Below, one piece after another: positions 7,459 through 18,504 of a stretch of 64,000 nucleotides of DNA. Under the pieces are notes generated by a model that was not told the DNA's origin, made no database searches, and saw only the letters and a program-made list of their open reading frames with translations. The position numbers and the translations under genes were made by a program. Every line of letters starts with the position of its first letter. Within the stretch, counting starts at the first letter, position 1. The stretch is from positions 3,777,501 to 3,841,500 of the forward strand of contig NZ_CP119075.1 in assembly GCF_029023725.1 (NCBI RefSeq), read 5' to 3'. This DNA comes from Synoicihabitans lomoniglobus (GTDB lineage Bacteria; Verrucomicrobiota; Verrucomicrobiia; Opitutales; Opitutaceae).

Positions 7459-8208
7459 ATGCCCGACTTTCGCGTTTTCATCCCCCCCCTCGCTTCGGCC
7501 GCCGCCGATCTGACATTATCAGGAAGCGAATCCCATCATTTGGTCACGGTGAACCGTGCCCTGTCCGGGGATCCCGTCGTGGCTTTTGACGGAGCCGGGA
7601 ACGAATGGGACACCACGCTGACCGTCGCCCACCGTCGGGCCGCCGTATTGACCATCCAACGTCATCGCCAAGCCGCCGCGCGCAAATGTGAAATCATTCT
7701 GGTGCAAAGTATGCCGAAGGGCGGGGTCATGGAAAACATCGTGCGCCAAGCGACCGAAATTGGCGTGAGCCGAATCGTCCCACTCCAAACCGCCCGCACC
7801 CAAGTCCAACTCGACCCCGGTCGCCAGGCCAAGAAACGCGACAAATGGGAAGCCACCGCCTTGGAAGCCGCCAAACAGTGCGGCAATCCCTGGCTTCCGC
7901 ACATTGACCCTCCCCGGGAATTTAGCGACCTGCGGGAGATTTGCAGCGACGCTGACCTGATTCTGATCGCCAGTTTGGAGCCCGATTCGCCTCCCCTGGC
8001 GAGCGTGCTGCAGACGTCCTCGGCGCCGGAGAAAACGCCCCGGCGGGTGGTATGGTTGATCGGCCCGGAAGGTGATTTCACGCCAGAAGAAACCCGGGAA
8101 GCCATTGCCGTGGGCGCCACGCCGGTCTCGCTGGGCTCCCTCGTGCTCCGGTGTGACACCGCCGCCACTTACGCGCTCGCGGTGGTAAACGCCGCCTTCA
8201 ATCCGTGA
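7459..8208 (+). CDS. rsmE: 16S rRNA (uracil1498-N3)-methyltransferase
   Basis: A SPOUT-family RNA methyltransferase that methylates U1498 in 16S rRNA using SAM. The start ATG at 7459 (MPDFRVFIPP) fits the family N-terminus; an earlier in-frame start at 7420 adds an unlikely extension. Visible landmarks are the SESHHLVTVNR segment, the EIILVQSMPKGGVMENIVRQATEIG-type core (residues about 75-100), and the C-terminal knot motifs WLIGPEGDFTPEE and LGSLVLRCDTAATYAL. Its TGA overlaps the GTG start of the next kinase gene (GTGA), so the rRNA-modification gene leads a signalling operon. Confidence 0.95.
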   Translation: MPDFRVFIPPLASAAADLTLSGSESHHLVTVNRALSGDPVVAFDGAGNEWDTTLTVAHRRAAVLTIQRHRQAAARKCEIILVQSMPKGGVMENIVRQATEIGVSRIVPLQTARTQVQLDPGRQAKKRDKWEATALEAAKQCGNPWLPHIDPPREFSDLREICSDADLILIASLEPDSPPLASVLQTSSAPEKTPRRVVWLIGPEGDFTPEETREAIAVGATPVSLGSLVLRCDTAATYALAVVNAAFNP

Positions 8209-11200
8209 AGGTTCCGTCGGGACTCCTCAATCTGTCGTTCCGCTCATGGCTGATGCTGGCGGCAGGTTCGTGGAGCCTGCTGCTGGGATTGGGCACCGGC
8301 ACCTTGGTTTACTATCAGGGCGCCCGTTCCTTCAGCGACCTCGCCCGGTTGGATCTCAATGACCGGTTGGAGCGGGCCACGTTTCGGGCCAATCAACTCC
8401 TGCTGTCGGCCGAGCTCAGTCTCGATTCCACGTCCCACTTGATCGCCCCGACCGCGGGCGAGGGGTTCGATGCCTGGCGGCGGTTTATCCGCCTCGCCCT
8501 GCCGATTTTCGAGCAACGTCCCGAGCTTTCCCGCCTGGGCTTTGCGCGCGCGGACGGACAGGAATTCGGCTACCTCACCCGCACCGCAACCGAAGGCGTC
8601 ACGCTCGATATCCAAATCGTAGCCGCCGACACCGGCCCCGAGCGCCATCGCTATCACGGAGATGCAGCGGAGCCCGCTTCGATCCTCCCCGCAATCGACG
8701 CGATCGCGCTGGCCCGACCGTCCGCCCCAAACGCCTTCGGCGAAATCCATTGGACTTCGCTGCAACCTCTGCCGCTGGCGACGGACGAGCAGGGCATCTC
8801 CCTCCTGCGCTCCGCGGCTGCAGGAACGTGGTGGATCGATTACAACGAACAGGACTTGGCGACGTTCATGGCCGCGCTGTATCAGGAAACCAAATTGCGC
8901 ACCGTTCTGGTGGATCGCCGCTCGGAGGAAAGCACGCTGTTGGGCGTGCCGGTTTCACGGCGTGCGATCGCGGCGAATCATATTCATGAACTGGATACAC
9001 TGGTCGCACGGCACGCGCAGTTTCCCGCCGTCTCCTACCAGTCGACCTTGGCGGAGCCTCACGAATTCCCCCACGCCGACCACACGTGGATCGGGGCAAA
9101 AATGCAGCTGCCCGCGCCGCACCTCGATTGGTCCCTCGCGGCGGCGACGCCCGTTCGATCCTCGTTTGGCGCCGCGGACGGCAGCACCCGCACCTTTATC
9201 ATCGCCACGCTGGTGGGCACGGCACTGAGCCTGTTGATGGCGTCCTTGCTCGCGCGCCGCCTCGCGCGCCCGGTCGAGGAGCTGTCGGCTTCGGTTTTGA
9301 AATTTGGCGACACCAATCTCATCACCGCGGCCACATCATCCGCGCCGCGCGAAATCCTGCAACTGGGGCGGGTGCTGCGCGAGCAGGGCCAACGCCTGCT
9401 GGAGCGCCAGTCCCAACTGGAGGCCGCCCACCGTGAAACGTTGGCTCAAGCCGACCAACGGCTGAGCCACGAAGCCACGCTGACCGCGATTTTTGAAAAC
9501 ACTCCCTTCGATCTCTGGATCACCGATGCCGACGGCGTCTACACGTTTCAGAATCGCTTTTCCCGGGAAAACTACGGGGAGGTGCTCGGGCAGCGCGTGG
9601 AGGATATCAAGCTCCCCCCCGCGGTGATCACCGATCGAATCGCCCGGTTCCGGCGCGTGCTCGACGGTGAAATCGTTTACTCGGACACCGAAGACATGAC
9701 TCCGCTGGGCTTGCGCCATTTTCACGCCGTGGAATCCCCCATTCTTCGCGACGGAAAGGTGGTCGGAGCACTCGGGGTCAAAATCGACCTGACCAGTCAA
9801 CGCCGGGCCGAGACCGCGTTGCGCACGAGTCAACAGCGCCTCAGCCGTCACCTGGAAAACACTCCCCTTGGCGCGGTGGATTTTGATCGGGACTTTCGGA
9901 TCCGCAGTTGGAACGCCGCCGCTCAACTCATCTTCGGTTGGCGGGCCGAGGAAGCGATCGGGCGGGTCGGGCTGATGATTGTTCCGCCGCAGTATCGAGC
10001 CGATGTCACGCACGCGTGGGAAGCGTTGATGGCCGACACCGCCAGTTCTCGAAATTTCAATCAGAACATCACGAAGGATGGCCGCACCATCGACTGCGAG
10101 TGGTATAATACGCCGACGACCAACGCCGACGGCGAGATCGCCGGGGTGTCGTCACTCGTGCTTGATGTGACCGAGCGAATGACGGCGGAACGCCTGTTTC
10201 GCGAATCCGAGGAACGCTTTCAGCGGGTCTTCCATCTGTCGCCCACCCCGCAGGCCATTCTCTCGTTTCCCTCGGGTCGGTTCATCGATATCAACCAAAG
10301 CTGGATCGACGGTTTTGGCTACCAACGCTCCGAAGTGGCGGAGCGCACCGATGCGGATCTGCACTGGTGGGTGACCCCATCGGACCGCGAACATTTCGTC
10401 GCCACCGTGCGCCAATCCGGAGCGTTTCCCGCCACGGCAGTCCAGCTCTTCGACCACAAACGCCGCAAGCGCACCGTCCATTTGTGCGCCACCCTCGCCC
10501 GCCTCGGCCATCAAGACTGCGTGGTGATATCCACGCCCGACATCACGCAACGCATGGAGGCGGAAGCGGAGCTGCGACGTCAGCAGCGTTTTCTCGCCAC
10601 CTTGGTCGATCAACTTCCGGGTATGACCTTCGAGTGCCTCGTCGACGAGGACTGGACCATGCGTTGGGTCAATCAGGGAACCCTCGCGCTCTGTGGTTAC
10701 GAACCCGCGGAGTTTCTCGACCGTCAAATCTCTTTCAACGACTTGATCGTGCGGGAAGACCAAGAGCCGGTGCGGGAGTTGGTGGAACGCACGTTGCGCA
10801 AACCGCGGGAGAGTCGCACTTACTCGATGGAATACCGCATTCATCACCGCGACGGCCGTCTACGCTGGGTCTGGGAAGCCGGCGAAATCGTGCGTGATCC
10901 TCAGACTCAAATCGACCGGATCATCGGGTTCATCACGGATGTGACTGCTCAAAAACAAGCGGAGCAGGAACTGCGCGATCTCAATGAAACCCTGGAGGTG
11001 CGCGTCGCCGCCCGGACCGCCGACCTCGAAGCGGCCAATTCGAAACTTCATGATCTGGATCGGCTTAAGACGGAGTTTTTAGCCACCATGAGCCACGAGC
11101 TGCGCACCCCGCTCAACTCCATCATCGGCTTCAGTTCGATTCTCGAACGCGGCATGGTCGGCCCCATGCTGCCGGAGCAGCACCACCAAATCGGCCTCGT

Positions 11201-11774
11201 CAATCAGTCCGCCCGCCAATTGCTCGATCTCATCAACGACCTGCTCGATGTGTCGCGGATCGACTCCGGACGCATGGAATTCTCCTTTGCCGAAATTGAT
11301 ATCTGCACCGTGCTCGAGACCATCGCCACCACGCTCCAACCTCAGTTCGACGGCAAGAAACTACGCTACGAAACGGTCACCGAGGCCGACCTGAACACCA
11401 TCGTCAGTGATTCCCGCCGCGTGGAGCAGGTGATCTTCAACCTCGCCTTCAACGCCGTTAAATTCACCCCGGGACCGGACGGCCGCGTCACGGTGAAGGC
11501 TCGCTCTCTGCCCGACGGCGGGATCGAGGTCAGCGTGACCGACAACGGAATCGGCATTCGGGCGGAGCATCTGCCGCAATTGTTCGAAGCTTTTCGTCAG
11601 ATCGACGGCTCCGCCCGTCGCGTCTACGAAGGCGTTGGGCTCGGGCTCAACCTCGTGCGCAAACTCACGGCGAAATTGGGCGGCCACATCGAAGTCAACA
11701 GCACCTACGGCGCCGGATCATGCTTTACCCTCACCTTGCCAGCCGTCGCGCCGGGCTCTAGTCTTTCCGTTTAG
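8205..11774 (+). CDS. multi-PAS sensor histidine kinase
   Basis: A 1189-residue membrane sensor kinase. A membrane helix (about 12-35) and a second one (about 328-348) flank a periplasmic domain of about 290 residues. A HAMP-like segment and a coiled coil follow, then four PAS/PAC units (about 430-540, 550-660, 675-785, 800-920). A second coiled coil leads to the HisKA domain MSHELRTPLNSIIGF (phospho-His near residue 964) and the HATPase domain with N box NLAFNAVKFTP, TDNGIGI and GVGLGLNLV. It starts at GTG 8205, overlapping the rsmE stop. It has no receiver domain of its own; the two genes that follow supply receivers, so a phosphorelay is likely. Confidence 0.93.
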   Translation: MKVPSGLLNLSFRSWLMLAAGSWSLLLGLGTGTLVYYQGARSFSDLARLDLNDRLERATFRANQLLLSAELSLDSTSHLIAPTAGEGFDAWRRFIRLALPIFEQRPELSRLGFARADGQEFGYLTRTATEGVTLDIQIVAADTGPERHRYHGDAAEPASILPAIDAIALARPSAPNAFGEIHWTSLQPLPLATDEQGISLLRSAAAGTWWIDYNEQDLATFMAALYQETKLRTVLVDRRSEESTLLGVPVSRRAIAANHIHELDTLVARHAQFPAVSYQSTLAEPHEFPHADHTWIGAKMQLPAPHLDWSLAAATPVRSSFGAADGSTRTFIIATLVGTALSLLMASLLARRLARPVEELSASVLKFGDTNLITAATSSAPREILQLGRVLREQGQRLLERQSQLEAAHRETLAQADQRLSHEATLTAIFENTPFDLWITDADGVYTFQNRFSRENYGEVLGQRVEDIKLPPAVITDRIARFRRVLDGEIVYSDTEDMTPLGLRHFHAVESPILRDGKVVGALGVKIDLTSQRRAETALRTSQQRLSRHLENTPLGAVDFDRDFRIRSWNAAAQLIFGWRAEEAIGRVGLMIVPPQYRADVTHAWEALMADTASSRNFNQNITKDGRTIDCEWYNTPTTNADGEIAGVSSLVLDVTERMTAERLFRESEERFQRVFHLSPTPQAILSFPSGRFIDINQSWIDGFGYQRSEVAERTDADLHWWVTPSDREHFVATVRQSGAFPATAVQLFDHKRRKRTVHLCATLARLGHQDCVVISTPDITQRMEAEAELRRQQRFLATLVDQLPGMTFECLVDEDWTMRWVNQGTLALCGYEPAEFLDRQISFNDLIVREDQEPVRELVERTLRKPRESRTYSMEYRIHHRDGRLRWVWEAGEIVRDPQTQIDRIIGFITDVTAQKQAEQELRDLNETLEVRVAARTADLEAANSKLHDLDRLKTEFLATMSHELRTPLNSIIGFSSILERGMVGPMLPEQHHQIGLVNQSARQLLDLINDLLDVSRIDSGRMEFSFAEIDICTVLETIATTLQPQFDGKKLRYETVTEADLNTIVSDSRRVEQVIFNLAFNAVKFTPGPDGRVTVKARSLPDGGIEVSVTDNGIGIRAEHLPQLFEAFRQIDGSARRVYEGVGLGLNLVRKLTAKLGGHIEVNSTYGAGSCFTLTLPAVAPGSSLSV

Positions 11775-11792
11775 TCTCCCCGCTCGCCCATC

Positions 11793-12164
11793 ATGCCCCA
11801 CGCTTTGCTCATAGAGGACAACGCTGCCAACCAACACCTCGCCACCTTCCTGTTGAAGCGCGCCGGGTTCACCGTCACCGTCGCGGAAAATGGTTTGCTG
11901 GGATACAATTCCGCCTTGGAATTGCGACCCGACGTCATCGTGCTGGATATTGAGATGCCGGTGATGGACGGCTACGAGACCTTTAAAAAACTCCACGCCG
12001 ATCCCGTCACCCACGATATTCCCGTGCTGGTGGCGACCTCCTACGCCATGCCCGGGGAGCGCAATCAGGCCCTCGAACTCGGCGTGCACGACTACCTCGA
12101 AAAACCCTACGAACCCGAAGAATTCATCCGCCGCGTCAAGCTGCTCTTCGACCCTGCCTCATGA
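11793..12164 (+). CDS. single-domain response regulator
   Basis: A 123-residue CheY-like receiver with no output domain. The acidic pocket is LLIEDN, the phospho-acceptor is Asp52 in VIVLDIEMPVMDG, the switch Ser/Thr is in VATSY, and the conserved Lys is in LEKPYEP. Its stop overlaps the start of the next gene (ATGA), which indicates coupled translation. Such a stand-alone receiver may shuttle phosphate between the kinase upstream and the hybrid kinase downstream. Confidence 0.93.
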   Translation: MPHALLIEDNAANQHLATFLLKRAGFTVTVAENGLLGYNSALELRPDVIVLDIEMPVMDGYETFKKLHADPVTHDIPVLVATSYAMPGERNQALELGVHDYLEKPYEPEEFIRRVKLLFDPAS

Positions 12165-14308
12165 CCCACACCATCCTCGTCGTCGAAGACAACCGCAACA
12201 GCATCTACCTGATGGAGCAGATGCTGACGGAAGCGGGTCACCGGGTGCAAAAAGCCGGCAACGGCCAGGAAGCACTCGACCTCATCAAGGTCAAAGGGCT
12301 GCCCGATCTCATCGTCTCCGATGCTCTCATGCCGACGATGGACGGCTTCGAACTCTGTCACTCCATCCGCCGTGATCCCCAGCGTTGTCATGTTCCCTTC
12401 GTGCTCTACACGGCCACTTTCACCGATGCCAGTGACGAGCACTTTGCGAAGGAAATCGGTGCCGATCTCTACCTCATCAAACCATTCGAACCCGAGAAGC
12501 TCGTGCCGCGTTTCGAGCAAGTGATCACGGAGGTTCGGGCCGCTCCGCCCCGCCCGCCCACGCCCCCGCAAAAACAACACAACTTTCTCGAAGGCCACAG
12601 CCGCCGTATGTCGGTCAAATTGGAGGCCAAGGTCGACGAACTCTCCGCCTCCAATGCCGCTCTGGCTTCCAGCGAAGCCGAAATCCGGGAACTCAACAAC
12701 AAGCTCGTCGACAGCATCCGCCGCTTGGAAGTCGAAGTGGAGGAGCGCCGCCGCGTCGCCACGGAACTTCAGCTCGGCCTCAAAGTGGCCGCCATGGGCA
12801 GCTTTGGTTTCGACTTCGACCGCGGCACCAGTTGGTGGACCGCGGAAGCGCTGGCGCTGCTCGGGTTTTCCACTCATCAAAAGCACCTCGCCTGGTCATC
12901 GCTCGCCACCCGTATTCCGGAGGAAAAACGCGCCAGTGCCGCCGCCGTTTTTTCCCCCGAGCCCGACGACCCTCAATCCCGCGAGGTCGAGTTCACCTTG
13001 GTCCAACCCGACGGCTCCCATCGCTTTCTCTACGCCCACAGCGAGTTGGTCGAGGTGGACGAGTCGGGCGAAAGTCGCCGCATCGGCGTCATCCGCGACA
13101 TCTCGATTCGACGGCGGGGCGAACTCGACCGCCTCAAACTGGAGCGCCGTCTGCGCCAGTCTCAGAAGATGGAAGCCATCGGCAATCTCGCCGGCGGCAT
13201 CGCCCATGATTTCAACAACATCCTCGCGGTCATCGCCGCCACCAGCGAATTGCTCGAAATCGACGCCGCCACATCCGAGTTACCCCAACGTTGGCGCGAC
13301 GGCATCGGCGACATTCGAGAGGCCTCCCGACGCGCGCGGGATCTGGTCAACCAGATCTTGATGTTCAGCCGCAATGAGCGGGCCGAAATCACCGCACTCG
13401 ATTTGCGGCAGATCATCGAAGAAGCCGCCAATCAGGTCACTTCCACGATGCCCGCCCACGTTGTGATCCGACCGCACTTCAAGACGAAGCGCAGCGCTCT
13501 GGCCAACTCCAATCAGGTGCACCGCATCCTGCTCAACCTCTGCACCAATGCCAAACACGCCATCGGCCACCACCCCGGCGAGATCACGATCAACCTCCAC
13601 CATGTGGAGCTCAATAAATCCGGCGCCGCCCGGCGACCGCCTCTCACGCCCGGTCACTACTTGAAATTGGAAGTCATCGACACCGGTTGCGGGATGGATG
13701 AGGAAACCGTGCAGCGCGTCTTCGAACCCTTCTACTCCACCCGCCCCGCCGGCGAGGGCACCGGTCTCGGACTCGCCGTGGTCCACGGCATCATGGCCAA
13801 CCACAATGGCGCGATTTTCGTGGACAGCAATGTGGGTGAAGGCACCACGTTCACCCTCTTTTTCCCGGCCGCCGATGAGACCCCCAAACCTTCCTCCCGG
13901 ACGTTCGCCGGTCAGGAACTTCCGGTCGGAAAAGGTGAACACATCCTCGTCGTCGACGACGAGCCCGCGGTGGCCAAGGTCGCCACCACGCTGATTTCCC
14001 GACTCGGCTACCACGTGGAAACCATGACCGACTCCATCGCCGCCCGGGACCGCCTCCGCTCCGAGCCGCTCGAGTTCGATCTCGTGGTTACGGATTATTT
14101 CATGCCCAACCTCACCGGGGCCGATCTGGCCCGCGCCGTCTGGGAAAAACATCCGCACCTGCCCATGATCATGATCGTCGGTTTCGGCGGGCAGATGGAC
14201 GCCAACCGCGCCAAAGCCGAGGGGTTCAAAGCCTTTGTCAGCAAACCTTTCACGATGCAGACGATGGCCGAAGCCATCGCCCACGGTCTCGCCGCCACCC
14301 CTCGCTGA
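12161..14308 (+). CDS. receiver-PAS-kinase-receiver hybrid protein
   Basis: A 715-residue soluble signalling protein. Order: receiver 1 (VVEDN, Asp54 in LIVSDALMPTMDG, Lys in LIKPFEP); a coiled coil (about 150-200); a PAS-like domain (about 205-315); a HisKA domain of the AHDFNNILAVIA type (His near 349); a HATPase (NLCTNAKHAIG, DTGCGM, GTGLGLAVVHGI); and a C-terminal receiver (VVDDE, Asp near 645 in LVVTDYFMPNLTG, Lys in FVSKPF). There is no membrane segment. As the third gene of the coupled kinase set it probably takes phosphate from the preceding kinase or receiver. No DNA-binding output is present in the cluster. Confidence 0.93.
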   Translation: MTHTILVVEDNRNSIYLMEQMLTEAGHRVQKAGNGQEALDLIKVKGLPDLIVSDALMPTMDGFELCHSIRRDPQRCHVPFVLYTATFTDASDEHFAKEIGADLYLIKPFEPEKLVPRFEQVITEVRAAPPRPPTPPQKQHNFLEGHSRRMSVKLEAKVDELSASNAALASSEAEIRELNNKLVDSIRRLEVEVEERRRVATELQLGLKVAAMGSFGFDFDRGTSWWTAEALALLGFSTHQKHLAWSSLATRIPEEKRASAAAVFSPEPDDPQSREVEFTLVQPDGSHRFLYAHSELVEVDESGESRRIGVIRDISIRRRGELDRLKLERRLRQSQKMEAIGNLAGGIAHDFNNILAVIAATSELLEIDAATSELPQRWRDGIGDIREASRRARDLVNQILMFSRNERAEITALDLRQIIEEAANQVTSTMPAHVVIRPHFKTKRSALANSNQVHRILLNLCTNAKHAIGHHPGEITINLHHVELNKSGAARRPPLTPGHYLKLEVIDTGCGMDEETVQRVFEPFYSTRPAGEGTGLGLAVVHGIMANHNGAIFVDSNVGEGTTFTLFFPAADETPKPSSRTFAGQELPVGKGEHILVVDDEPAVAKVATTLISRLGYHVETMTDSIAARDRLRSEPLEFDLVVTDYFMPNLTGADLARAVWEKHPHLPMIMIVGFGGQMDANRAKAEGFKAFVSKPFTMQTMAEAIAHGLAATPR

Positions 14309-14339: not shown

Positions 14340-15911
14340 TCACCACACCAGCAGCCCGCCGGCAAAGGTGAACCCTGCGCCCACGCTGCAGAAGATGATC
14401 TTGTCGCCGCTTTGGAAAATTTCTTCCTCGGCCGCCCAGCCCAGCGCCATCGAAACGCTCGCGCCTGAAGTGTTGCCGTATTTGTCGATCGTGACGACGA
14501 AGCGATCAAACGGAATACCCACGCGCTTGGACACCGCGCGCAGGATGCGTTCATTGGCTTGGTGCGGCACGATCCAACCGATGTCCTCCGGCTTCAAGTT
14601 GTGCCGCCGCAGCGTGTCTTCGATCTCGTTGGCGAAAGCGATCACGGCTCCCTTGAACACCACCGGTCCGTCGACCTGCAGGTAGAAGTCATCGACGTCG
14701 ATGGCCTCCGGCTTGGGCCAGGGTTTGTTGGCTCCGCCGCCGCGGCGTTGAATCGCGGAAAATTTATTGGCGTCACCGGAAAGCGCCATTCGATGCAACC
14801 GATGACCGTCCGCCGCATTCGTGAGAATCGCCGCCCCGGCGCCATCGCCGAAGAGAAACGCGGTCTCATGATCACGCGGATTCGTGATGCGCGACAACAA
14901 TTCCGCTGTCACCACAATCAGGTTACGCGCCGTGCCTCCGAGTATGAGGGACCGTCCGATTTCGAGCGCGTAGAGCCAGCCGGAACAAGCCGCATTGAGA
15001 TCAAACGCCAACGCTCCGGGCACGCCGAGTTTTTGCGCCAACGCACTGGCCATGGCCGGCACCGGTTGGTCCGGAATGATCGTCGCCATGATCACGCCAT
15101 CGATGGACGCGATGTCCACGCCCGACTGCTCCAGGGCATGCCCGACGGCAATCACGGCCAGGTCCGTCGCGGTCTCGCCTTCGCCGGCAAAACGGCGCTC
15201 GCGGATGCCGGTGAGCTTGACCATCTCCTCTTCCGTGCGACCGGGAAATTCTTTGAGCACATCCTTGGTCGAACGCACGTTCGTCGGCACCGCGTAACCG
15301 ACGCCGGCGATGCAGACCGTCGCCGCCGAGCCATCAGTCTCGGGCAACGCTGCCGGCGCGCTCGCGGCCACGGGGGCGGTCGCCCGGCTCGCCAGGTAGG
15401 CCGCCACATCATCACCCGAAACCCGGCCTCCCGGACCAGTCGCCTTGATATCGGTAATCGCGACGGGATCCAGGCCGGCTTCCTTGGCCAGCTTGGCGGC
15501 GCGCGGTGTCCATTGTGGTCCCGTCGGAACCGGAGCGGCGGAGGGAACTGGCGTCGCGGCCGGGGAGGCAGCCTTGGGCGCGGCGGACGGAGTCTGCGGA
15601 GCGACCACCGCCGCGTCGCCTTTGACCGCCAGATGCAACAAGGAGTCGTCGACGGTCGCGATCCGCATGAAGGGTGATCCCGAGGGCACGATGTCTCCCG
15701 CCCGCACTTCCAGTGCCTGCAGGGTGCCGTCGCAAGGCGCTTCGAACTCGAATACGGACTTGTCGCTCTCCAGTTCGGCGATCTTGTCACCCTTGGCGAA
15801 AGTATCGCCCGTATTTACCATCACATCGATGATGGTGAGTTCGTTTACGGTCGCGCCCATCGAAGGGATCGGCACGTCGATCAGAAACGGTTCCGGTTTG
15901 GTATCAGCCAT
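14340..15911 (-). CDS. lipoyl domain + E3-binding domain + beta-ketoacyl-ACP synthase III fusion
   Basis: A 523-residue protein with an unusual architecture. Residues 1-95 form a lipoyl/biotinyl domain of the 2-oxoacid dehydrogenase E2 type: the hairpin ELESDKSVFEFEAPCDG puts Lys51 in the lipoylation position after Asp50. A Pro/Ala-rich linker (about 100-132) leads to a peripheral subunit-binding (E3-binding) domain at about 134-173, WTPRAAKLAKEAGLDP to GPGGRVSGDDVAAYL. A second Ala/Pro linker is followed by a complete KAS III (FabH-like) enzyme from about residue 198. Its triad appears intact: Cys309 in NAACSGWLYALE, His450 in VPHQANERIL and Asn480 in KYGNTSGAS. KAS III normally starts fatty-acid synthesis from acyl-CoA and malonyl-ACP. 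Here the E2-like half suggests acyl supply on a lipoyl arm (inference). There is no E1 or E3 gene nearby; kdsA and pyrG are upstream on the same strand. Confidence 0.9.
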   Translation of the reverse strand: MADTKPEPFLIDVPIPSMGATVNELTIIDVMVNTGDTFAKGDKIAELESDKSVFEFEAPCDGTLQALEVRAGDIVPSGSPFMRIATVDDSLLHLAVKGDAAVVAPQTPSAAPKAASPAATPVPSAAPVPTGPQWTPRAAKLAKEAGLDPVAITDIKATGPGGRVSGDDVAAYLASRATAPVAASAPAALPETDGSAATVCIAGVGYAVPTNVRSTKDVLKEFPGRTEEEMVKLTGIRERRFAGEGETATDLAVIAVGHALEQSGVDIASIDGVIMATIIPDQPVPAMASALAQKLGVPGALAFDLNAACSGWLYALEIGRSLILGGTARNLIVVTAELLSRITNPRDHETAFLFGDGAGAAILTNAADGHRLHRMALSGDANKFSAIQRRGGGANKPWPKPEAIDVDDFYLQVDGPVVFKGAVIAFANEIEDTLRRHNLKPEDIGWIVPHQANERILRAVSKRVGIPFDRFVVTIDKYGNTSGASVSMALGWAAEEEIFQSGDKIIFCSVGAGFTFAGGLLVW

Positions 15912-15982: not shown

Positions 15983-16780
15983 CTACGCCGCCCGCACCGT
16001 GCGCCAAATCGCCAAACAACGGCGAATCACGCCCGCCAACTCATTCAACGGCACCATGTTCGGACCGTCGCTGATGGCGTGGGCCGGATCCGGGTGCGTT
16101 TCCAGAAACAAACCGTTTGCACCCGCCGCCAGCGCGGCCTTGGCCAGCGGCTCGACGAATTCGCGCTGACCACTGCTCTTCCCGCCGCCCGCTCCGGGAA
16201 GTTGCACGCTGTGCGTCGCGTCGAGAATCGTGGGATAACCGTTGGCCGCCATGATGGGAAATCCGCGCATGTCGACGACGAGGTTTTGGTAACCAAAGGT
16301 CGTGCCCCGCTCGGTCTGCCAGATCTCGGCCGCCCCACCGTCCTTCAGTTTACCGACGACGTGCACCATGTCGGTCGGCGAGAGAAACTGGCCCTTCTTC
16401 ACGTTGACCGTGCGGCCGGTCGCTGCCGCCGCCAGGAGCAGGTCGGTTTGCCGACACAGAAACGCGGGGATTTGCAACACGTCCGCCACGGCGGCGACGG
16501 GCGCACACTGTTCGGCGTTGTGAATGTCGGTGACAACGGGGAATCCAAACTCGCGTTTCACCATGGCGAGCAACTCGAGTCCGGCCGCCATGCCCGTGCC
16601 GCGATCGCCGGCGATCGACGTGCGGTTGGCTTTGTCGAACGAGCCCTTGAATACGATCGTCAGGTCCGCGTGGGCGTCGCGCAGCGCCGCGAGCTCGGTC
16701 GCCACGGTGCGGCAAACGGACTCGTTTTCGAGCGAACAGGGGCCCGCCAGAAGCAGCAGTTTATCGGCGTCGAAAATCAT
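15983..16780 (-). CDS. kdsA: 3-deoxy-8-phosphooctulonate (KDO-8-P) synthase
   Basis: Condenses arabinose-5-phosphate with phosphoenolpyruvate to KDO-8-phosphate for the lipopolysaccharide core, in the cytoplasm. The 265-residue length is normal. Landmarks are [12 protein letters not shown] at the start, [12 protein letters not shown], the GxG loop region, [33 protein letters not shown] and [10 protein letters not shown]. The start at 16780 is 8 bases from the pyrG stop, so the two genes are probably cotranscribed. It confirms a Gram-negative envelope with KDO-containing LPS. Confidence 0.96.
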
Positions 16781-16788
16781 GGTCGCGT

Positions 16789-18504
16789 TCAGGAATCGGT
16801 CTTCGGTTCAGCCGCTTTCTTAACCACGGGTTTGGTCGCCTTCTTGGTGGTTTTCTTCGCCGTCTTTTTCTTCTTCGCCTTCGGGGCTTTTTTCGCCACC
16901 GGTGCTTTCGCGGCGTTATGATGCTTCATCGCAGCTTTCACAAAGGCGGCGAAGAGCGGATGCGCCTCGTTGGGCTTGGACTGAAATTCCGGGTGGAACT
17001 GCACCGCGACAAACCAAGGATGGGCCTTGATCTCGACGATTTCCACGAGGTTGCGACGCGGGTTGAGCCCGCTCACCACCATACCGGCGCGTTGCATGGC
17101 GCCGACGTAGGCGTTGTTGACTTCGAAGCGGTGGCGATGGCGCTCCCGCACGTATTCCTCGCCGTAGGCCTTGCGCGCCTTGGTGCCGGGTTGGAGCTGA
17201 CATTCGTAGCTGCCGAGCCGCATGGTCGCGCCTTTGTCCACGATCTTCTTCTGATCCTCCATCATGGTGATGACGGGTTCGATCGCCTCCTGATCAAATT
17301 CGAGTGAATTGGCGCCCTTGAGTTTGAGCACGTTGCGGCAGAACTCGATCACCGCGATCTGCAGACCGAGGCAGAGACCGTAATACGGCACGTTGTTTTC
17401 GCGGGCATACCGCGCGGCGGCGATTTTACCTTCCGTGCCGCGGTCACCAAATCCACCCGGCACGAGAATGCCGTCGAGGCCCTTGAGCAGGCTCAAACCG
17501 TTGCGGGCTTCCAAATCCTCGGCGTCAATCCGACGGACGTTGACCCGGCAATAGTTGGCAATGCCGGCGTGCGTGACCGATTCGTAGACCGATTTGTAGG
17601 CGTCCTGCAGCTCGATGTATTTGCCGACGACGCCGATCGTGACTTCGTGCCGCGGGTTGTTGATGCGGTTAACGATGTCGGTCCACAGATTATTGTCCGG
17701 CATCGGGCGCTTCATGCCGAAAAGGTCGACCACGAGTTCATCGAGACCTTCCTTTTCCAGCGCGATGGGCAGTTCGTAAATCGACGCCACATCCTGACAC
17801 TCGATGACCGCTTTGACGGGCACGTTGCAGAACATTGAAATCTTGTCCCGCATCTCATTGTCCATGTCGTGCTCGCACCGGCACACCACGATGTGCGGCT
17901 GGATACCGATCTCGCGCAACTTCGCCACGGATTGCTGCGTGGGCTTGGTCTTCAACTCGCCCGCCGCGCCGAGGTAAGGCACGAGGGTCACGTGCATGAA
18001 GAGGCAATCGCGCGGACCGACCTCGAGGGCAAACTGACGCATCGCTTCGAGAAACGGCAGTCCCTCGATGTCGCCCGTCGTGCCGCCGATTTCCGTAATC
18101 AGCACGTCGACGTCCTTCGCCCCTTGGTAAATGCGGTCCTTGATCTCGTTCGTCACGTGCGGGATCACCTGCACGGTTTTGCCGAGGTAGAGGCCCCGAC
18201 GCTCATTTTGGATAACGTTTTCGTAGATCTGGCCGGACGAAAGACTGTTGAGCTTGGAGAGCTTGCCGCTGGTGAAGCGCTCGTAATGGCCCAGATCGAG
18301 GTCGGTTTCGGCCCCGTCTTCGAGCACGTAGACCTCACCGTGTTGGTAGGGGCTCATCGTGCCGGGATCGACATTGAGATACGGGTCAAACTTCTGAATG
18401 CGGACCTTCAGTCCCCGCACTTCCAGCAACGCACCCAGCGCCGCCGCCGTCAACCCCTTGCCCAAGGACGAAACCACCCCTCCGGTCACGAAAACATATT
18501 TCAT
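16789..18504 (-). CDS. pyrG: CTP synthase with lysine-rich C-terminal tail
   Basis: Makes CTP from UTP, ATP and glutamine. The N-terminal synthetase domain begins [17 protein letters not shown]. The C-terminal class I glutamine amidotransferase domain carries the nucleophile Cys in YYGLCLGLQ and the His/Glu pair in VQFHPEFQS. The enzyme normally ends near 545 residues. This one has 571, with a final 40-residue tail of Lys/Ala/Pro repeats ([19 protein letters not shown] and similar) that looks like a histone H1 tail. The tail is in frame and has normal codon use. It lies in a pyrG-kdsA pair. Confidence 0.97.

Follow-up and report, generated by a model that had tools for sequence, protein, structure and literature searches.

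We analysed a 64,000-nt stretch of Synoicihabitans lomoniglobus (NZ_CP119075.1, positions 3,777,501-3,841,500; hereafter the window, with all coordinates counted from its first letter), which includes a gene joining a lipoyl domain, a peripheral-subunit (E3/E1) binding domain (PSBD) and a beta-ketoacyl-acyl carrier protein (ACP) synthase III (KAS III) in one chain. This fusion is a real, conserved enzyme architecture, which is neither an E2, as the catalytic core is missing, nor a standard FabH, as the coenzyme A (CoA) cradle is missing. We consider it rather probable that the fusion is a self-contained acyl-starter enzyme, filling the 'E2' role in a small 2-oxoacid dehydrogenase system with a beta-ketoacyl-ACP as product and not an acyl-CoA.

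Domain architecture and conservation of the fusion protein

The fusion is encoded on the minus strand; the plus strand over the same positions, 14340-15911, is interrupted by stops. Its features are as follows.

14340..15911, minus strand: lipoyl-PSBD-KAS III fusion gene, an open reading frame (ORF) of 523 aa with an ATG start
15660..15878, minus strand: lipoyl domain, residues 12-84 (Pfam Biotin_lipoyl PF00364, 5.7e-15)
15759-15761, minus strand: Lys51, the modification lysine in ESDKS
15405..15509, minus strand: PSBD, residues 135-169 (Pfam E3_binding PF02817, 2.6e-7)
14343..15320, minus strand: KAS III catalytic domain, residues 198-523 (Pfam, NCBIfam, Foldseek and residue alignment)
14985-14987, 14562-14564 and 14472-14474, minus strand: KAS III active-site residues Cys309, His450 and Asn480, respectively

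All four Pfam matches of the protein exceed their gathering cut-offs, including the PSBD (31.2 bits for PF02817, with a cut-off of 23.7) and the two KAS III matches, ACP_syn_III at residues 303-377 (1.1e-23) and ACP_syn_III_C at residues 434-523 (8.4e-29). Among NCBIfam models, NF006829 scored 299.4 bits (above its cut-off of 249) and TIGR00747 267.8 bits (below its cut-off of 292.1). The catalytic acyltransferase core PF00198 was absent from the Pfam matches and from this genomic place, and no phosphopantetheine (PP-binding) domain was found in the Pfam scan, the carrier being the lipoyl domain. An earlier sequence-only reading had described a single frame carrying lipoyl Lys51, an E3-binding domain and a complete FabH-like domain with Cys309, His450 and Asn480, in which KAS III takes the place of the E2 catalytic domain. 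Both descriptions were correct, the frame lying on the minus strand and the Pfam matches being devoid of PF00198.

The AlphaFold2 model of the fusion (mean predicted local distance difference test, pLDDT, of 78.3; predicted template modelling score, pTM, of 0.73) shows folded domains connected by predicted linkers of low confidence, with pLDDT below 50 at residues 103-128 and 178-193, between the domains, and also at residues 389-392. The 50 PDB matches listed by Foldseek, out of 1529, were KAS III-family enzymes, mostly FabH.

To describe its distribution we used a class sample of 384 genomes (G handles) and the best 80 of 548 relatives in GTDB (L handles); both overlap partly and are not independent sets. 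Orthologues with at least 54% identity (54-77%) were present in 23 of the 384 genomes, other listed matches not exceeding 43%. Of these, 17 encode the whole fusion, one (G381) has a fusion truncated where its contig ends, and in five lipoyl-PSBD and KAS III are split into neighbouring ORFs (G015, G093, G164, G231 and G290), the G093 pair sitting on one contig of 5,957,605 bases. Among the 80 GTDB loci, whose titles are mostly Opitutales where they name a narrow group, 50 are fused, 27 carry the same modules as neighbouring ORFs and 3 have KAS III only. Some of the 27 split loci are possibly frameshifts, L252 resembling one. Two of the three KAS III-only loci are at a contig edge and the third, L281, is inside its contig with neither a lipoyl gene nor kdsA (the neighbour of the fusion in the window, see below) beside it. 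The lipoyl lysine is retained in all 77 loci having a lipoyl part.

Since 50 GTDB loci are fused and orthologues at 54-77% identity occur in many genera, the fusion is no chance join, and a sequencing or assembly artefact, which the sequence-only reading had named as a possible undoing of its proposal, is ruled out. A mobile or viral origin was also rejected: among 412 plasmid records with a match, none spans 80% of the query at one place, and the two viral-contig matches align to the KAS III part only, at 33-37%. One genome, G236, has two copies of the fusion, L164 in G236:C66 with 54% and L037 in G236:C34 with 60% identity to the protein of the window. Three Opitutales-like fusions are on contigs with unexpected titles, one Sumerlaeota and two Akkermansia muciniphila (L231, L241 and L256), which are probably mislabelled bins. 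The sequence-only reading knew of no described enzyme of this architecture; likewise, judged by titles, no fusion of a lipoyl domain to KAS III or another ketosynthase was found described in the open part of PMC.

The KAS III active site and the CoA cradle

The KAS III part resembles E. coli FabH (PDB 1hn9; about 34% identity over 316 aligned columns) in its thiolase fold, Cys-His-Asn triad and basic ACP-docking residues. It differs from it by the absence of Trp32, Arg36 and Arg151, the replacement of Phe87 by Val and the additional lipoyl-PSBD part of about 190 residues. In superposed structures of E. coli FabH with CoA, as described in PMC4606726, the adenine is stacked in between Trp32 and Arg151 and also bonded to Thr28, and Arg36 helps to hold the phosphopantetheine.

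Using E. coli FabH numbering, we compared 23 rows of lipoyl-linked KAS III (two unreadable at position 32 and one at 36) with canonical FabH, read in 31 of 39 genomes, of which 21 are carriers of the lipoyl-linked KAS III. Canonical FabH kept Thr28, Trp32, Arg36 and Arg151 in 31/31 genomes. In the lipoyl-linked KAS III, Trp32 is replaced by Glu (20 rows) or Ala (1 row), Arg36 by Leu, Val or Thr, and Arg151 by His or Tyr. The same was observed in the 80 GTDB loci, where none of these CoA-holding residues is kept (W32 0/79, R36 0/80 and R151 0/80). The triad is intact in this set, with Cys in 80/80 and both His and Asn in 78/78 readable rows. Lys214, Arg249 and Lys256/Lys257 (Lys or Arg), which we take to be ACP-docking residues, are retained as well: Arg249 is found in 78/78 readable GTDB rows, position 257 is Arg in 78/78, and positions 256/257 are better kept than in canonical FabH. 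Position 87, presumably the primer gate, is Val in 23/23 lipoyl-linked KAS III and Phe, Met or Leu in canonical FabH.

With the adenine cradle gone, we propose that CoA is not used in the acylation of Cys309. As judged from these alignments, cradle loss argues against ordinary CoA binding more than it proves a lipoyl donor. In KAS III trees the lipoyl-linked enzymes form one clade, but long branches make its position relative to other KAS III unreliable.

A probable E1 partner and its co-occurrence with the lipoyl-PSBD module

The sequence-only reading had stated that nearby genes give no E1/E3 context. No E1 was found among the neighbours of the fusion gene in the window, so this held for the neighbouring genes, but not for the genome, where phyletic profiling identified a probable E1 partner elsewhere. 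This further E1 of S. lomoniglobus is a fused alpha-beta protein of 680 aa (G000:C1:899632-901671) with no E2 directly adjoining. The genome has only two E2 catalytic domains (PF00198); one E2 is read as part of a SucA-SucB-Lpd cluster, with an E1 that is SucA-like by size and by eye, and the other as lying beside the E1 alpha and beta of pyruvate dehydrogenase (PDH). Two E3 genes of this genome are located at G000:C1:909117-910499 and 1422230-1423606.

Orthologues of the fused E1 (at least 55% identity) are present in 37 of the 384 class genomes, in two of them as two pieces, the next long matches not exceeding 39%. The lipoyl-PSBD module (query residues 1-177, E-value of 1e-20 or better) is also present in 37, and the two sets are identical (Fisher's test, 2e-52). 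The next module matches, at 5.9e-18 and weaker, are nearly all in ORFs of at least 390 aa among the matches listed, the listed short-ORF exceptions beyond the 37 being G103 (183 aa) and G331 (321 aa). Since 36 of the 37 carriers belong to one family, the telling cases are few: G377, from another family, has both E1 and module, and G226 and G024, from the same family as the rest, have neither. In the genus of G226, the other four genomes sampled have both. From this co-occurrence, the fused alpha-beta E1 appears to be a well-supported partner of the lipoyl-PSBD module.

In G377 the fused E1, the fusion, E3 and LipA are present while no PF00198 domain is. Single matches were obtained for E1 (3 of 5 candidates scored) and for lipoyl-PSBD, and lipoamide dehydrogenase exceeded its cut-off. 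LipA did so too, but with one stop inside the match, and may be broken or mis-sequenced. With one E1 match found and no E2 catalytic domain, the fusion would be the sole way out of this E1.

The 37 carriers consist of 18 genomes with a fusion, 5 with split genes and 14 with a stand-alone lipoyl-PSBD gene. The latter follows pyrG and kdsA in 14/14 genomes, and the sequence read around it contains no such KAS III. Of the 14 stand-alone proteins, four were scanned; all four contain lipoyl and PSBD, and two of them also have a GCV_H match that overlaps. A tree of the E1 (33 of the 37 genomes, rooted on G377, built by a quick method, with two branches long and 11 of 30 inner branches weak) places fusion at its base and the split and stand-alone forms within, a pattern for which three changes are enough. 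The fusion therefore seems old, fission and KAS III loss being probably later.

Across 39 genomes, strong PF00198 matches numbered at least two in 37, one in G256 and none in G377. A weak PF00198 match lies inside an ORF of more than 1000 aa in 13 of the 39. The three scanned are E1alpha-E1beta-lipoyl-E2 proteins; single chains of 1026-1076 aa having E1 alpha, E1 beta, lipoyl and E2 catalytic domains, without a PSBD match, are seen at L316:4775-7927, L318:4329-7409 and L319:3806-7036. Such long ORFs occur in 2 of 23 genomes with a lipoyl-linked KAS III versus 11 of 16 without (Fisher's test, 1.4e-4, with no correction for kinship). The all-in-one dehydrogenase and the lipoyl-linked KAS III are thus distributed as if one could replace the other. 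Two other arrangements were observed. At L317 (G058:C14, around 11262-13580, minus strand), another arm-bearing E1 is an alpha-beta protein that has a lipoyl domain at its C-terminus and, by eye, no E2 core. In G042, genes read as those of PDH E1alpha, E1beta and E2 are immediately followed by a diverged KAS III gene (L320:7637-8608).

Proposed reaction, gene neighbourhood and alternatives

In the reaction that we propose, LipA, which is present, would lipoylate Lys51 together with its partners. The fused alpha-beta E1 would decarboxylate a 2-oxo acid, probably a branched-chain one, and reductively acylate the arm. Swinging on its linker, the arm could then reach the KAS III tunnel, within its own chain or dimer, and acylate Cys309 without CoA. 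By the chemistry of its family, KAS III would condense the acyl group with malonyl-ACP bound at the conserved basic residues, and the resulting beta-ketoacyl-ACP would be the start of a fatty chain. E3 docked on the PSBD would reoxidise the dihydrolipoyl arm. The sequence-only reading had already proposed an arm charged by E1 that feeds KAS III without CoA. Consistent with this are the E1 co-occurrence (37/384), the situation of G377 and the loss of the cradle with triad and docking residues kept. The picture has nevertheless widened, the modules being split in 5 of 37 genomes and this KAS III lacking in 14.

Upstream of the fusion, on the same strand, are the following genes.

15983..16780, minus strand: kdsA (Kdo-8-phosphate synthase), directly upstream of the fusion with a gap of 71 bp
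16789..18504, minus strand: pyrG (CTP synthase), upstream of kdsA with a gap of 8 bp

A constant kdsA neighbourhood was not borne out. In the GTDB set, kdsA is within the flank of 50 loci and pyrG of 54 (45 with both, 5 with kdsA only, 9 with pyrG only and 21 with neither). Contig ends account for few exceptions: upstream sequence is shorter than 1 kb in 3 of the 30 loci without kdsA beside the module, and in just 3 of the 21 with neither gene. At 31 of the 34 E1 loci examined, out of 37, kdsC is no more than 1.5 kb from the E1 (exceptions G221, G174 and G188; an example is L051:9013-11672), and 14 of 16 longer stretches have lptB close by; KdsC and LptB were named by family cut-off in G256, and LptB also in S. 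lomoniglobus. With the fusion located after kdsA in S. lomoniglobus, and the E1 ahead of kdsC and lptB, one candidate for the end product is the branched 3-hydroxyacyl chains of lipid A, a speculative one as the kdsA link is missing in part of the family. On the other side of the fusion, window positions 8205-14308 carry on the opposite strand a 1189-aa multi-PAS histidine kinase, a 123-aa receiver-like ORF and a 715-aa hybrid kinase with receiver domains.

Several observations weigh against the fusion as acyl-starter enzyme of this E1. This E1 might be served by an ordinary E2: in S. lomoniglobus a sucB-type E2 and an E3 are about 9 kb away from it, and by the coordinates listed an E2 is found within 20 kb in 13 of the 37 genomes, 10 of them of the stand-alone type. 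In the 14 stand-alone genomes, with no such KAS III beside the module, the E1/lipoyl-PSBD pair has another outlet; together with the 5 split genomes, they indicate that fusion is not required for the role of the pair there. The co-occurrence is clustered in one family, with few independent events. The fused E1 matches NCBIfam PDH models below cut-off, and no substrate was assigned from them. Loss of the CoA cradle also fits a KAS III taking acyl-ACP. Finally, Lacunisphaera species contain iso-C15:0 and iso-C13:0 3-OH, and L. limnophila IG16b has 48.6% iso-C15:0, as given in PMC5303756. Bulk iso-fatty acids are thus independent of the system in G226, taken as L. limnophila, which lacks E1 and module. 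This weakens branched-fatty-acid supply as an essential role.

Four other explanations were weighed. The N-terminal half could merely tether KAS III to a dehydrogenase complex, an ordinary E2 making acyl-CoA for local use by KAS III. This agrees with the presence of the PSBD, the E2 catalytic domains in 38 of 39 genomes, the E2 genes within 20 kb of E1 and the stand-alone modules, but no readable row retains the CoA-adenine cradle, G377 lacks the E2 catalytic domain that would produce acyl-CoA, and a pure tether would not need an invariant lipoyl lysine (77/77). We hold tethering to be unlikely. About as improbable, in our estimate, is that the acyl donor of KAS III is ACP or some other carrier, with the lipoyl arm used for something else, such as delivering the E1 acyl group to CoA through the E2 of PDH or 2-oxoglutarate dehydrogenase (OGDH) in trans. 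The strongly conserved ACP-docking residues (with Arg at position 257 in all readable rows), a cradle loss that suits any protein-bound donor and the existence of stand-alone lipoyl-PSBD are in its favour; it leaves unexplained why the arm is fused to, or neighbours, KAS III in 77 of 80 loci, and how G377 manages without any E2.

A reaction specific to Kdo/lipopolysaccharide (LPS) and other than fatty-acid priming is suggested by the proximity of E1 to kdsC and lptB, by kdsA beside the module (50/80 GTDB and 14/14 stand-alone loci), by Kdo itself being a 2-oxo acid and by the iso-fatty acids of G226. The KAS III triad and docking residues are intact, however, 30 of 80 GTDB loci have no kdsA beside the module, few of them through short upstream sequence, and the shared neighbourhood may just reflect old gene order, which makes this explanation very unlikely. 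Least credible, and strongly disfavoured, is that neighbouring genes were joined by accident without being functionally linked. That the modules also occur separately would agree with it, but fusion is maintained across many genera and is at the base of the E1 tree with the root chosen here, both active centres are conserved, and E1 and module co-occur.

The E2 of PDH, OGDH and branched-chain 2-oxoacid dehydrogenase has, like the fusion, a lipoyl domain, a linker and a PSBD in the same order, followed by the PF00198 core in whose place the fusion has KAS III. The E3-binding protein (component X) of PDH is a lipoyl-PSBD protein without acyltransferase activity; by this description it resembles the stand-alone form of the 14 genomes and, unlike the fusion, has no KAS III. 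The nearest functional precedent, likened by description, is BkdABC of Photorhabdus, where, according to PMC4578411 and PMC4901931, a beta-ketoacyl thioester is produced by the Bkd enzymes with BkdB as carrier protein; another paper names the Bkd product isovalerate-CoA (PMC3838401). The carrier there is a phosphopantetheine ACP, whereas in the fusion it is a lipoyl domain joined to KAS III.

To our knowledge, lipoyl complexes otherwise pass their cargo to CoA, or to tetrahydrofolate in glycine cleavage. We lean, by a little, towards the view that the fusion represents a further class of lipoyl-swinging-arm machine, in which the E1-loaded arm delivers the acyl group directly to a C-C bond-forming ketosynthase, converting a 2-oxo acid to beta-ketoacyl-ACP without acyl-CoA. 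If so, oxidative decarboxylation and fatty-acid initiation would be joined in one protein and lipoic acid would gain a new acyl acceptor. This would predict genomes that prime lipids independently of the acyl-CoA pool, and would offer a ready-made fusion for engineering branched fatty acids. The fused, split and stand-alone forms are a natural series on how such fusions arise and dissolve.
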